The notes under the pieces were generated by a model. It was not told where the DNA came from. It saw only the letters and a program-made list of their open reading frames with translations, and searched no databases. Below, piece by piece: positions 22,534 through 32,794 of a stretch of 64,000 bases of DNA. Source of the DNA: Luteipulveratus mongoliensis (lineage in GTDB: Bacteria > Actinomycetota > Actinomycetes > Actinomycetales > Dermatophilaceae). Location of the stretch: the NCBI RefSeq assembly GCF_001190945.1, contig NZ_CP011112.1:1240001-1304000 (forward strand), given 5' to 3'. The number at the start of each line of letters is the position of its first letter. Within the stretch, counting starts at the first letter, position 1. Position numbers and translations under genes: made by a program.

Positions 22534-24969
22534 TCAGGTCGAGCCGCCGCCGGACTGCATCATGCAGCCCATCACCGCGTTCTGCGCGCCAGAGTTGTCC
22601 AGGCCGGGGATGTCGCGCTCGGTGGTCGGGTCGTCGACGAAGGACCAGAGCGCCGCATTGGTGCTCTTCGACTTGTAGAGCGCACTGCCCATGCAGTCGT
22701 ACATGCTCTGGGGGTAGTGGTCACCGTGGGCTTCTGCGCCCCGGCGTTGCGCGGCAGCGAGCGTCGCCGGGCTCGGGCGTCCGGTGTGCGCGCCACCTGT
22801 CGGGGTCGGTGAGCTGGCCGGCGGGGCTGAGGTGTCGACGACGGTGAGCTTGCCTGCAGCCCAACGGACTTCGCTGTTGTGGCTGACCATCTCGAAGCTC
22901 GCGCCGTCGTACTCCTTCCAGGTCATCAGGACCTTGCCACCGCTCACGGTGAGGGTGTCGACGTTGGCGTGTTCCTTCTGATGGTTGACCGTCTTGAGAT
23001 CGACCGAGCCGAGTAGCTTGCCGCCGTCACCGGTCAGCACGAGGACCTGCGGCCAGCCGACTCCGCCGGCGCTGCAGTCGTACGCGAACAGGCCCTGCTT
23101 GTAACCGAGTCCGGCCAGATCGGTGAAGACGACCTTGTCGCTGACCTGGCCGAGGCCGCCTCCGAACGGCTTCGGCGCCTTGCCGCCGACGAGTCGTTGA
23201 GCGGTGGCCTGGCAGGCTGCCGGCACCTGCGCGGTCTGCAGCGTGGCGGGCGTGACGTCCGCCGGCGGCTTGGCTGCGGATCCGGCGCTGAGGGTGCGAG
23301 CCGCGCCAGTGGCGACGTCCTGGATCTTGTAGTTGCTGAGAGCCTTCGCGGTCTTCTCGATCAAGCGAATTCGGCTGGGGCTGTAGCCCGCCCATGCGGT
23401 GCCGACCACCTTGCGGTCGTTGCCGCTCGGCGGTGCGAGCAGCGGGTTGCCGCAGTTGCACTTGGTGCGTGGCATGCCGTACTGGTCCACCAGGACGGCG
23501 GTGCCGGCCTGGAGGACGGCGGGGTAGGACTCGGGCTTGCCGTTCTTGTAGATCGTGTTGGTGACGTAGGTGTCGGCGCGCAGCACGACCGACGTGAAGC
23601 TCTTGATGGTCGCGGAGATCTGGTCGACCCGGATGCCCTGCAGCTGGGCCCACGCCTTGGCGACCGACGGCTTGGCCATGATCAACGAGATCAGCCGCTC
23701 GCTGTCGCACGAGACCTTGTCGCCCTCGCGGCCGTAGAGCCCGGCCTGGTCACCCGTGGTGCTCTGCGGGTCGAAGTCGCCCGACGCCGCGGTGTTGGTC
23801 GCGCCGCCGGCGGGTCCGTCTTGGCGCACATGCGGCTGCTTCACCGTGTCGGACGGCTTGTCCGTCACGACCGAGCCGGTGAACACCTCAGGCTGGGTCT
23901 TGTCGGCCGGGATGAGCTGCACGGCCTGCGCGTTGTTGTCGTCCGAGCCGAACACCTTGGGTCCGAGGAGGGCACCGATCAGCCCGACCGAGACGGCCGC
24001 GACGAGCAGCGGGATGATCCAGCGCTTCCAGCTGCCGGCCTGCGGGGGTACGCCGCCCGGTCCGGTCGCGAGAGCGTGCGCCCCGGCCCCGCCGGCAGCC
24101 CCGCCCGCGCCACCGGTGGCCGCGGAGGATGGCGGACCGTACTGGCCCGTCAGCGTGTGCTGGGCGGCCTGGGCGAACGCCTTGGCCGTGGGGTAGCGCT
24201 CACTCGGCCGCTTGGCCAGGGCATAGCCGATCACGTCGTCCAGCGCGGACGGGAGACCCGGCCGCAGCTGCGACATCGGTGGCGGTGGTTGCTGCATGTG
24301 GGCGTCGATCAGCGACCGTTGGGAGCCACCTCTGAATGGCGGTGCGCCCGTAAGGCATTCGTACAGAACGCAACCCAGCGCATAGATGTCGACAGCGCCC
24401 GTGAGCGGCTGGTCGTCGTCGAAGCGCTCAGGCGCCATGTAGGCGAACGAACCGATCGCGCCGCCGGCCGTCGTGAGGCGGGTGTCAGCCGTACTGCTCG
24501 CAATGCCGAAGTCGGAGAGGTACGCGTGGTCCCCGGCCAGCAGAATGTTGGCCGGCTTCACGTCCCGGTGCACGAGATGAGCGGCGTGCGCGGCATCGAG
24601 AGCGCCGGCAATCTGGGTGACGACCGACACCGCCTCCTGCGGGTCCATCGGCCCGCCGGACTGGATCCGGCTCTTCAGGTCGTGGCCGTCGATGAAGGCC
24701 ATCTCGATGTAGAGGACGTCGTCGATCGCGCCGAACGTGTGGATCGGGACGATGTGAGGGTTCTGCACGCGGGCCGCGGTGAGCGCCTCACGACGGAAAC
24801 GCGCTTGGTAGGACGGGTCTTTCGCGAGACGCGGCGGCAGCAGCTTGACCGCGACGATGCGGTCCTTCTCGGTGTCCAGAGCGCGGTAGACCTCGCCCAT
24901 CCCGCCACGACCCAGCAGCATCTGCAGCTGGTAGGGACCGAACATCTCCCCCGAACGATCGTCCGCCAT
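22534..24969 (-). CDS. Transmembrane Ser/Thr protein kinase with extracellular domain
   Basis: The protein has 811 residues. The kinase domain spans about 12-275, with Gly loop GRGGMGEV at 20-27, Lys 42, HRD at 134-136 and DFG at 153-155. All catalytic residues are present. A Gly/Ala/Pro linker and a single transmembrane segment (about 315-335) follow, then an extracellular region of about 470 residues with no PASTA repeats. The last 84 residues (from HTGRPS, with two Cys) closely resemble the tail of the kinase at 25709-27034. It probably senses an envelope signal. The ligand and substrates are unknown. Confidence 0.9.
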   Translation of the reverse strand: MADDRSGEMFGPYQLQMLLGRGGMGEVYRALDTEKDRIVAVKLLPPRLAKDPSYQARFRREALTAARVQNPHIVPIHTFGAIDDVLYIEMAFIDGHDLKSRIQSGGPMDPQEAVSVVTQIAGALDAAHAAHLVHRDVKPANILLAGDHAYLSDFGIASSTADTRLTTAGGAIGSFAYMAPERFDDDQPLTGAVDIYALGCVLYECLTGAPPFRGGSQRSLIDAHMQQPPPPMSQLRPGLPSALDDVIGYALAKRPSERYPTAKAFAQAAQHTLTGQYGPPSSAATGGAGGAAGGAGAHALATGPGGVPPQAGSWKRWIIPLLVAAVSVGLIGALLGPKVFGSDDNNAQAVQLIPADKTQPEVFTGSVVTDKPSDTVKQPHVRQDGPAGGATNTAASGDFDPQSTTGDQAGLYGREGDKVSCDSERLISLIMAKPSVAKAWAQLQGIRVDQISATIKSFTSVVLRADTYVTNTIYKNGKPESYPAVLQAGTAVLVDQYGMPRTKCNCGNPLLAPPSGNDRKVVGTAWAGYSPSRIRLIEKTAKALSNYKIQDVATGAARTLSAGSAAKPPADVTPATLQTAQVPAACQATAQRLVGGKAPKPFGGGLGQVSDKVVFTDLAGLGYKQGLFAYDCSAGGVGWPQVLVLTGDGGKLLGSVDLKTVNHQKEHANVDTLTVSGGKVLMTWKEYDGASFEMVSHNSEVRWAAGKLTVVDTSAPPASSPTPTGGAHTGRPSPATLAAAQRRGAEAHGDHYPQSMYDCMGSALYKSKSTNAALWSFVDDPTTERDIPGLDNSGAQNAVMGCMMQSGGGST

Positions 24970-25095
24970 CAGCGGACCCGGTCGGACGCGTGACCCCAGG
25001 TGCTCATGGTGCGTGAGATTACGCGATCAGCAGGCGCCGCAGGCGGACTGGACAGCGAGGCGTCAACCGGCGGCCTTGCGCGGTGAGTGCCGTGC

Positions 25096-25623
25096 TCACA
25101 CCGGCTGCGGGCGCCACTCCGGATCACGGCCCGTCACAGCGAGGATCCGGTGCAGGCTCGAAGCCCCGGGAGCAAGCTCGACCGGTGTGCCCCACAGCTC
25201 CGGGACCGGCGCGTTCGGGACGAAGGTGGCCACATGCGCCAGACATGCCTGCAGCGTGTCCTCGGGCAGCTCGAAGGTCTGGCCACTCGCGACGGCGAGG
25301 TCCCAGCCGTGCACGACCATCTCCGTGAGAGCGATCTTTCCCCAGGTCGCGTTCGAGAGGCCGACGTCGCCGCCGCTGCTCCCGTCCCAGGCGGCCGAGT
25401 CGTCCCATGCGTCACCGAGACCCATGACGTGGGCGACCGGCGAGTCCTCCTCGGAGGACGAGCCTCCGGCGAGGCCGATGAAACCGTGCGCCACCTGGTC
25501 TACATGCTCCACCAGGTCGCGAACTCGGTACTCGGCGCACGGAGTCGGTTCGGCCAGGTGTCGGTCGGTGAGCGCCGCGAGCACGTTGCGCATCTCAGCA
25601 CAGGCCGGCTTCAGATCGATCAT
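25096..25623 (-). CDS. TIGR03086-type DinB/mycothiol-dependent maleylpyruvate isomerase-like protein
   Basis: The protein has 175 residues and looks like a four-helix DinB/MDMPI fold. The N-terminal DLKPACAEMRNVLAALTDRHLAEPTPCAEYRVRDLVEHV matches the TIGR03086 opening in which a His on helix 2 is a metal ligand. Such proteins are putative metal-binding enzymes that use mycothiol; the substrate is unknown. The ATG at 25623 follows GAGGAGG closely. It sits between the two membrane kinases on the same strand. Confidence 0.8.
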   Translation of the reverse strand: MIDLKPACAEMRNVLAALTDRHLAEPTPCAEYRVRDLVEHVDQVAHGFIGLAGGSSSEEDSPVAHVMGLGDAWDDSAAWDGSSGGDVGLSNATWGKIALTEMVVHGWDLAVASGQTFELPEDTLQACLAHVATFVPNAPVPELWGTPVELAPGASSLHRILAVTGRDPEWRPQPV

Positions 25624-25708
25624 GTGTCCTCCTCGGTCGGGGTTGCACCGGTGACGTCGGAGTCGTCGATGCGATCTCGACATTCGCCTTCAGGGACGCA
25701 TAGCTCGC

Positions 25709-27034
25709 TCAGCCGGCGTTGGGCAGGCTGGCGCACGACAGCGCTACACCGAGGGCGGTGCTCTGGTAGCCGGGCGGGTCCTCGGAGGGCTTATCGACGT
25801 ACGCCCACAGCGCGGTGTCGGTGGTGCGCGAGGCGTACAGCCCCTTGCCGACGCAGGGGTAGAAGCTGGGCTGGTACGCCTGTGTCACCTTGCCCATGAC
25901 CGCGGCCCGACGTGTGGCATCGGTCAGGATCTGCTCCGAGGGTCGACCCGTGTGCTTGCCGCTTGGCGCGCTGGTCACAGGTGCGGTCCCCGTTGCCGAT
26001 GCAGTGGTGGGAAGAGGGCGATCGGACACGGTGGTGCTGACCGCAGGGAGGGCAGCCGGCGCGCCGTCGTCAAGCAGTCCGGGCGCGACGACGGCGCCGG
26101 TCAGCGCGACGGCCGCAGCGCCGACCAGTGCGGGTACGGCCCAACGTCGCCGGCGCGGCGCGCTGGGTGTGGACCCTGCGGCCAGCTGCGGTTGCGTGAT
26201 GGGACGGCCGGCGAGGGCTTGCTGAGCCGCCCGAGCGAGATCACGCGCGGACGAGAACCGAGCGGCCGGCTCTTTCGCCAGGCAGGTGGCGAATACCGTG
26301 TCGAGCGCCGGCGGCAGACCCGGGCGGCTGGCCGACAACGGTGGCGGCGGATCGTCCAGCTGCGCGCGGATGAGGGCACGCTGCGACGTGGCACGGAACG
26401 GAGGCGCTCCGGTGAGGCATTCGTACAGCACGCAGCCGAGGGCGTAGACGTCCACCGCGCCCGTCGTCTGTCCGTCGTCCTCGAACCGCTCTGGCGCCAT
26501 GTACGCGACCGAGCCGACCGCGACGCCGGTGGACGTCATGCGAGTGTCGGTGTCGTTGCTGGCGATTCCGAAGTCGGACAGGTAGGCGTGCTCGCCGGTC
26601 AGGAGGATGTTGCCGGGCTTGACGTCCCGATGAACCAGACCGGCCGCATGGGCTGCGTCCAGGGCCGCCGCGATCTGTCCGACGACAGCGACGGCGTGAC
26701 GCGGGTCGAGGGGACCACCCGAGCGGACGCGGGTCCCGAGGTCCCGGCCATCGACGTACGCCATCTCGATGAAGAGCACGTCGTCGATGGCGCCGAAGGT
26801 GTGGATCGGCACGATGTACGGACTCTGGACCCGGGCGGCCGCGTGCGCCTCCCGGCGGAACCGAGCCTGGTAGGTCGGGTCCTGCGCCAGGTCGGGTGGC
26901 AGCAGCTTGACCGCGACGATCCGGTCCTTCTCGGTGTCGAGCGCGCGGTAGACCTCGCCCATACCGCCGCGACCGCGCAGCGACAGCAGCTGATACGGGC
27001 CGAACATCTGCCCTGAGCGATCGGTCGCAGTCAC
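25709..27034 (-). CDS. Transmembrane Ser/Thr protein kinase, paralogue of the neighbouring kinase
   Basis: The protein has 441 residues. Gly loop GRGGMGEV, Lys 43, HRD at 135-137 and DFG at 154-156 are intact. A single transmembrane helix lies near 295-318. The extracellular part is only about 120 residues and ends in the same HTGRPS...LYxS...ALWxxVD domain (361-441, Cys 394 and 434) as the larger kinase. The kinase domains are very similar, so the pair arose by duplication. GTG is the start codon. Confidence 0.9.
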   Translation of the reverse strand: MTATDRSGQMFGPYQLLSLRGRGGMGEVYRALDTEKDRIVAVKLLPPDLAQDPTYQARFRREAHAAARVQSPYIVPIHTFGAIDDVLFIEMAYVDGRDLGTRVRSGGPLDPRHAVAVVGQIAAALDAAHAAGLVHRDVKPGNILLTGEHAYLSDFGIASNDTDTRMTSTGVAVGSVAYMAPERFEDDGQTTGAVDVYALGCVLYECLTGAPPFRATSQRALIRAQLDDPPPPLSASRPGLPPALDTVFATCLAKEPAARFSSARDLARAAQQALAGRPITQPQLAAGSTPSAPRRRRWAVPALVGAAAVALTGAVVAPGLLDDGAPAALPAVSTTVSDRPLPTTASATGTAPVTSAPSGKHTGRPSEQILTDATRRAAVMGKVTQAYQPSFYPCVGKGLYASRTTDTALWAYVDKPSEDPPGYQSTALGVALSCASLPNAG

Positions 27035-31485: not shown

Positions 31486-32794
31486 TGTCAAGGCTCAGGA
31501 CATCGGTAACACTCTTTCGGTCCAGGACATCGGTGACGGTGTCCTGGACCGGATGATGAGTTATGGGTAGAAGTGATGCTGAGCCGATCGGTCCTGAAGT
31601 AGCGGCGGCGGTAGCTGCGAAGCATCGAGGCGACTGTGTGAACGTGGCGGCATTTTGTGCCCAGCAGGGCCTGTCGCGTAAGTCGTTCTACAAGTACTTG
31701 GCCCGGTTTGCCGCTTCAGGAGTGTCGGGCTTCTACCCCGATTCGCGCCGCCCGCACGCCTGTCCGACAGCCGTCTCGTCCGTTGTCGAGGACCTGATTG
31801 TGTTGGCCCGCAAGCGTTTAGAGGATCAGGGCTGGGACGCCGGAGCGAACTCGATCGTGTACTGGCTGCTGGATCACCCCGCTGAGTGGCCGGTCACGAT
31901 GCACGGTGTCCCATCGCGGTCGACGATCAACCGAGTCCTTAAGCGTCGCGGTCTGCTGGTCCTGGTGCCACGGCGGGCTCCCAGCCGGCATCGGCGTCGG
32001 TTCGAGGCCGCCCACCCCAACACCCGTTGGCAGATGGACGGATTCGAGTACACCCTGGCCTCCGGAGCCATCGTTGTCGTGCTGCACCTCGTGGATGACT
32101 GCTCACGGATGGACCTGGCTTGCCACGCCGCTCGCAGCGAGAACTCCCAGGACGTGTGGGCGGCATTCGCCGGCGCAGTCCAGAGGTACGGGCTGCCAGC
32201 ACAGCTGCTCACCGACAACGGCACCGCGTTCTCAGGTCGCCGTCGAGGCTGGACATCGACCCTGGAAACGAACGCCAATGTCCTCGGCGTGCACCACTTC
32301 ACCTCCTCGGTCGGACACCCGCAAACCTGCGGCAAGGTCGAACGAGCCCATCAGACCTGCTTGAAATGGCTCCGCAAACGCCCGCCTGCCCAGGACCTCG
32401 CACAGTTGCAAGACCTGCTGGATCGCTACCGCGAGCACTACAACCATCGGCGGCGTCACCAACATCTCGATGGCCTGACACCAGCCCAGCGCTACGAGCT
32501 AGGTCCCAAAGACCAGCCCGGGCCAGCCACGACTGCACCGGTCTATGTAACCCGCCGCATCGTGGCCAAGAACGGCTCCATCGGGATCGAAGGCGTCCTG
32601 GTCGGCGTCAGCAAGAAAGTCGCCTCGCAGGAGGTCCTCGTGATCCACCGCGGACGCCACCTGGCCATCTTCATCGGCAACAACCTCATACGCGAGATCA
32701 CCCTCACTGTCGCCAAAGGTGGCTACCAACGAATCGCCAAAGCGTCACCGAAGTCCTGAACCGCAAACTGTCACCGATGTCCTGAGACATCACA
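31486..32794 (+). mobile_element. Intact IS481-family insertion sequence (1309 bp)
   Basis: The ends begin TGT and read inward as TGTCAAGGCTCAGGACATCG at the left and TGTGATGTCTCAGGACATCG at the right; 23 of the first 28 bases match. Each end carries a second, tandem copy of CAGGACxTCGGTGAC, probably a transposase-binding site. GCGC flanks both ends (31482-31485 and 32795-32798) and may be the target duplication. One intact transposase gene fills the interior. Removing the element restores a long palindrome. Confidence 0.88.
31563..32759 (+). CDS. IS481-family transposase
   Basis: The product has 398 residues: an N-terminal helix-turn-helix (about 15-60, CAQQGLSRKSFYKYL), a second HTH-like segment, then an rve integrase core. 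The catalytic triad is complete: Asp 159 (QMDGFEY), Asp 218 (LLTDNGTAF) and Glu 260 (GKVERAHQ). A C-terminal beta domain follows. The absence of stops or frameshifts suggests recent insertion. Confidence 0.95.
   Translation: MGRSDAEPIGPEVAAAVAAKHRGDCVNVAAFCAQQGLSRKSFYKYLARFAASGVSGFYPDSRRPHACPTAVSSVVEDLIVLARKRLEDQGWDAGANSIVYWLLDHPAEWPVTMHGVPSRSTINRVLKRRGLLVLVPRRAPSRHRRRFEAAHPNTRWQMDGFEYTLASGAIVVVLHLVDDCSRMDLACHAARSENSQDVWAAFAGAVQRYGLPAQLLTDNGTAFSGRRRGWTSTLETNANVLGVHHFTSSVGHPQTCGKVERAHQTCLKWLRKRPPAQDLAQLQDLLDRYREHYNHRRRHQHLDGLTPAQRYELGPKDQPGPATTAPVYVTRRIVAKNGSIGIEGVLVGVSKKVASQEVLVIHRGRHLAIFIGNNLIREITLTVAKGGYQRIAKASPKS

Follow-up and report, generated by a model that had tools for sequence, protein, structure and literature searches.

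Two Luteipulveratus membrane kinases share a predicted extracytoplasmic two-cysteine domain with small actinobacterial lipoproteins

Two membrane Ser/Thr kinases of Luteipulveratus mongoliensis, here called K1 and K2, end in a common domain (the tail) that, to judge from profile searches, is not specific to kinases and is mostly a domain of lipoproteins. Both are encoded in the window, by which we mean the whole 64,000-nucleotide stretch of DNA that was analysed, taken from a genome of 5.42 Mb in one contig (Table 1). We consider it reasonably probable that K1 and K2 are receptor-like kinases whose distal module, drawn from a family of surface lipoproteins, binds a ligand or partner in the envelope. 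Few bacterial receptor kinases have an identified signal, and an outer kinase domain that is kin to free lipoproteins, some of them with a conserved gene neighbourhood, would provide a route to the ligand via these small proteins. The domain also adds an unnamed family to the annotation of actinobacterial genomes.

Table 1. Features of K1, K2 and the gene between them, in window coordinates
Feature	Coordinates	Strand	Basis
K1, membrane Ser/Thr kinase, 811 aa	22534..24969	-	ORF and translation; Pkinase E 2.3e-45
K1 kinase domain, residues 13-264	24178..24933	-	Pfam PF00069; HRD, DFG, APE motifs
K1 membrane helix, residues 318-336	23962..24018	-	Kyte-Doolittle maximum 2.47; WKRW just before
K1 DUF6777 module, residues 403-556, includes CNCGNPL	23302..23763	-	Pfam PF20568 E 3.9e-46
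K1 middle module, residues 570-727	22789..23262	-	No Pfam family; lipoprotein relatives
K1 tail, two-Cys lipoprotein-type domain, residues 728-811 (84 residues)	22537..22788	-	Homology to K2 tail and profile searches
195-aa gene separating K1 and K2, same strand as both	25096..25683	-	ORF, GC3 0.81
K2, membrane Ser/Thr kinase, 441 aa, GTG start	25709..27034	-	ORF; Pkinase E 8.5e-44
K2 tail, two-Cys lipoprotein-type domain, residues 361-441 (81 residues)	25712..25954	-	Homology and family alignment
K2 linker rich in Ser/Thr/Pro, residues 318-360	25955..26083	-	Translation reading
K2 membrane helix, residues 299-317	26084..26140	-	Kyte-Doolittle maximum 2.1; RRRRW just before
K2 kinase domain	26249..26989	-	Pfam PF00069

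Both kinase domains are intact, with the catalytic Lys and the HRD, DFG and APE motifs all found. Each protein has a single hydrophobic peak that follows an Arg/Lys-rich stretch, and on this combination of hydropathy and charge the tails are predicted to be extracytoplasmic. K1 and K2 would be paralogous single-pass receptor-like kinases, with the kinase domain inside the cell and the C-terminus outside.

The two tails are homologous. Aligned by Smith-Waterman, they score 132, whereas 2000 shuffled versions of one tail average 24.9 (s.d. 4.6) and reach 47 at most. A reading made earlier from the sequence alone (the sequence-only reading) had described a pattern common to both, namely HTGRPS, a Cys, LYxS, ALWxxVDxP and a second Cys about 40 residues on, and all of these elements were located in both kinases (the last motif in K1 reads ALWSFVDDP). 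The domain tolerates departures from this literal motif, as the K1 ortholog in a second Luteipulveratus genome (G001) starts RPKRPT and the K2 ortholog in a third (G002) starts RSGRPS. Neither tail matched any Pfam family at E values up to 10, and an NCBIfam search with 16 domain sequences returned no convincing model (best stray E 0.0043). Identity with a named sensor, whether PASTA, PknH_C or any other Pfam family, was rejected because nothing matched in the Pfam scans. The tail is a real, unnamed domain, new as a family and familiar as a kind of arrangement, and its earlier description as an undescribed extracellular C-terminal domain of both kinases holds, with the extracytoplasmic location being predicted. 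Nothing on it was found in the literature on DUF6777, on Luteipulveratus protein kinases or, in a narrow search, on domains shared by kinases and lipoproteins. A tblastn search of plasmids and phages with the K2 tail gave no match, no tail was seen in other kinases of the L. mongoliensis genome (C-terminal parts of 24 Pkinase matches, a few incomplete), nor was one seen in seven kinases close to K2 that come from other genomes or loci.

Occurrence of the domain outside kinases, raised as a check on the sequence-only reading, was established by profile searches. The first profile comprised four kinase tails (two from the window and one each from G001 and G002). Among 186 genomes of the family it matched Luteipulveratus only, besides one match broken by two stops; among 396 genomes of the order it matched the L. 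mongoliensis genome and at least five genomes outside the genus (E 4.1e-5 to 2.4e-3). None of these five relatives is a kinase: three are short, lipobox-bearing lipoproteins, and in the other two, both membrane proteins, the tail domain forms the C-terminus behind an N-terminus that resembles DUF2510 (an assignment confirmed in one of them). A profile of these five alone matched 9 of 179 order genomes at E up to 0.01, recovering the K1 tail in its own genome (E 1.8e-6) as well as new lipoproteins. Profiles of 16 and 21 sequences found matches in 5 of 158 genomes of the class and 9 of 50 genomes of the family, respectively, and a lipobox is present in all 10 further family copies that were read. 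The L. mongoliensis genome itself carries two further copies, adjacent to each other at about 2,095,640-2,096,568, both of them lipoproteins.

The reciprocal match between kinase tails and the two-Cys lipoprotein domain was obtained via the K1 tail. When a lipoprotein-only profile was run on 5581 local ORFs, kinase tails were its best matches besides the lipoproteins. Such profiles score K2 tails weakly (E 0.069 for the G002 ortholog, with the window K2 not among the matches listed), so the K2 tail is assigned to the domain through its match to K1 and through the joint profiles. The final set of 31 sequences holds 25 short lipoproteins, the two DUF2510-type membrane proteins and the four Luteipulveratus kinase tails; the export signal of the relatives, a lipobox or an upstream membrane helix, was read by eye or by pattern. 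Kinase-fused copies occur, among the matches listed, in three Luteipulveratus genomes only. Weak matches in G021 (L032, two stops), G486 (L058, one stop) and G620 (L120, partial, without a lipobox) were judged to be chance and left out of the set, as was a possibly genuine match in G453 (L127, E 0.0077), with a lipobox and the two Cys.

Each of the 31 sequences has exactly two Cys, in the same columns, and the only invariant residues are a Pro, the two Cys and a Leu, with identity to the K1 tail falling as low as 15%. A disulfide between the two Cys, proposed in the earlier reading, is likely, and invariance in 31 of 31 relatives is what such a bond would require. In a tree of 92 columns, many of whose inner forks are weak, the four kinase tails group together as a single clade (100/100) nested among RPS-type lipoproteins of other families and stand apart from 14 lipoproteins of their own family. 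The fusion of kinase and tail probably arose once, in or before Luteipulveratus. Afterwards the kinase would have been duplicated, and K1 would have acquired the DUF6777 and middle modules (or K2 would have lost them). Structure prediction, a further check, yielded a fold of four helices (AlphaFold2 on three sequences, mean pLDDT 67, a modest confidence). Foldseek and VIA-align searches with this model found no convincing solved relative and no pocket; the best VIA hit (Z 4.6), of a size that the tool describes as common for such models, was rejected as not significant.

K1 has an extra region between its helix and its tail. The sequence-only reading had put it at about 350 residues with no known sensor; it measures about 390 (residues 337-727), and the absence of a known family holds for the middle module and fails for residues 403-556, which are DUF6777 at 157.2 bits against a curated cut-off of 27. 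DUF6777 is distinct from the tail and has no Pfam match in K2. Among 97 relatives it was found in three kinases of the L. mongoliensis genome, K1 included, in G001 within the K1 ortholog, and as three fragments in G048. It was also present in 23 of 396 genomes of a phylum sample, where at least one of the proteins read (L072) has a kinase motif and others may be kinases, several loci being incomplete. Most of these phylum proteins (L064-L090) carry a C-x-CGNP motif, and their C-terminal ends vary widely, from Pro/Ser-rich stalks to folded-looking modules. The other two DUF6777 kinases of the L. mongoliensis genome (L060 and L061, near 1.095 Mb and 0.07 Mb) have kinase domains that are 98% identical (270/275) and C-terminal modules that have clearly diverged, as if the outer ends had been swapped or were fast-evolving.

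The middle module of K1 matched 7 of 43 genomes, including K1 itself in its own genome and lipoproteins in G001, G002, G008, G015 and G026. The match in G051 (L139), an ORF resembling a methyltransferase, looks spurious. Two stretches recur in the middle-module lipoproteins (L135-L138, L140, L141): DLDGDG, which resembles a calcium site, and GGVxWPxVIVVYG. The outer part of K1 therefore reads, at the level of sequence, like a mosaic of three portable envelope modules, each used also away from K1; a single-sequence structure model of it was useless (pLDDT 38). K1 and K2 share 72% identity with each other in the kinase domain and only 52-53% with the other two DUF6777 kinases, from which it follows that modules have been shuffled between kinases.

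On our preferred reading the tail, a small and probably helical domain of about 80 residues that in other actinobacteria is mostly the folded part of a short lipoprotein, would recognise an envelope ligand or partner. It would do so from the end of a flexible linker in K2, and from beyond DUF6777 and a second lipoprotein-type module in K1, with the Cys pair forming a disulfide that holds the helices. Binding may then gather the kinase domains and lead to autophosphorylation. Ligand-driven association followed by autophosphorylation is a general proposal for bacterial receptor kinases. The tail might instead be an envelope-targeting or stability module that places the kinase at a particular site, such as the septum, the peptidoglycan or a protein complex, with the stimulus acting elsewhere, for example on DUF6777 of K1 or on the membrane part. 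A small domain at the very end of a protein, after a linker and otherwise mostly alone on lipoproteins, would suit such a role; lipoproteins are often adaptors, and the two other modules of K1 could do the sensing. However, K2 has no other folded-looking extracytoplasmic part, and any sensing outside the cell would need the tail, which makes pure placement rather unlikely in our estimation.

For the free lipoproteins, gene neighbourhood offers a hint as to the kind of ligand. In all nine matched genomes of the family, at least one free copy lies between genes for cytidine deaminase and pyrimidine nucleoside phosphorylase, as identified by motif reading; Pfam supports both enzymes in L. mongoliensis and one each in G012 and G021. 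The flanked lipoproteins (L132:1960-13390, near 2.09-2.10 Mb of the L. mongoliensis genome; L145-L150, L153-L155, L157 and L159) are tandem pairs in several genomes, and in G026 the interval between the two enzyme genes contains about 3-4 kb of extra DNA. Genes for a PnrA-like (Bmp) protein, an ABC transporter and adenosine deaminase are close to the L. mongoliensis copies. Such company would fit a tail with affinity for nucleosides, nucleobases or similar compounds, and kinases that report these compounds outside the cell. We regard this as improbable for K1 and K2. Their tails group with RPS-type lipoproteins of other families instead, and the neighbourhood is thus only a lead where the kinases are concerned. 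No nucleoside gene was seen on reading four RPS-type neighbourhoods by eye (L093, L112, L114, L125), the second G026 copy (L119) is also located elsewhere, and there is no nucleoside gene at the K1/K2 locus. Further, a position shared within one family may be inherited synteny. A broader conjecture, which we offer as a long shot, is that this widespread and unnamed actinobacterial lipoprotein family represents a new extracytoplasmic recognition class, tied in one family to a nucleoside uptake and salvage locus and wired, together with two other surface modules, onto Luteipulveratus Ser/Thr kinases. Kinases and free lipoproteins would then sense identical or related signals in the envelope, perhaps nucleosides that dying cells set free.

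Returning to K1 and K2 as candidate receptors, their closest precedent, by plan and not by sequence, is PknH of M. tuberculosis, whose sensor domain occurs also in lipoproteins and has two disulfides and a V-shaped cleft (PMC4118811). Both systems have a cysteine-containing extracytoplasmic C-terminal domain on a membrane Ser/Thr kinase that is common to free lipoproteins. In contrast to PknH, with its two disulfides, the tails of K1 and K2 have one Cys pair, and so at most one disulfide, within about 80 residues predicted to be helical, and they have no PknH_C match in Pfam at E up to 10. They may represent, after PknH, another case of kinase sensors common to lipoproteins. The overall plan is also that of PASTA kinases (PknB / Stk1; NF033483 at 288 bits, cut-off 450), familiar relatives of the kinase portion, yet neither K1 nor K2 has a PASTA match at E up to 1. 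By eye, two other kinases of the same genome (L034, L035) have PASTA-looking repeats. The top NCBIfam match of both kinases is StpK7 (MSMEG_1200, NF052427) at 341 and 334 bits, which is far under its cut-off of 900 bits and covers the N-terminal part only, not the tail.

The gene between K1 and K2 encodes what we take, from its look, to be a DinB/MDMPI-type protein. The window has both kinases; in G001 only a K1-type kinase was found, and in G002 only a K2-type kinase, adjoining a transhydrogenase subunit gene. As G001 and G002 each seem to keep just one, neither kinase seems indispensable across the genus. That species keep different kinases, and that the fusions listed are confined to Luteipulveratus, might suggest that the tail is no more than a relic of one lineage, an extension at the C-terminus that serves no selected function, but this is very hard to reconcile with residues that stay invariant in every relative despite such low identity and with the retention of LYxS and ALWxxVD between the paralogs. 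Exonuclease III and acyl-CoA synthetase genes, named by sequence reading, lie close to the kinase site in all three Luteipulveratus genomes. They are close neighbours in G001 and G002, and are separated in the window by a transposase-like ORF, of integrase type by reading, at 31563-32759.
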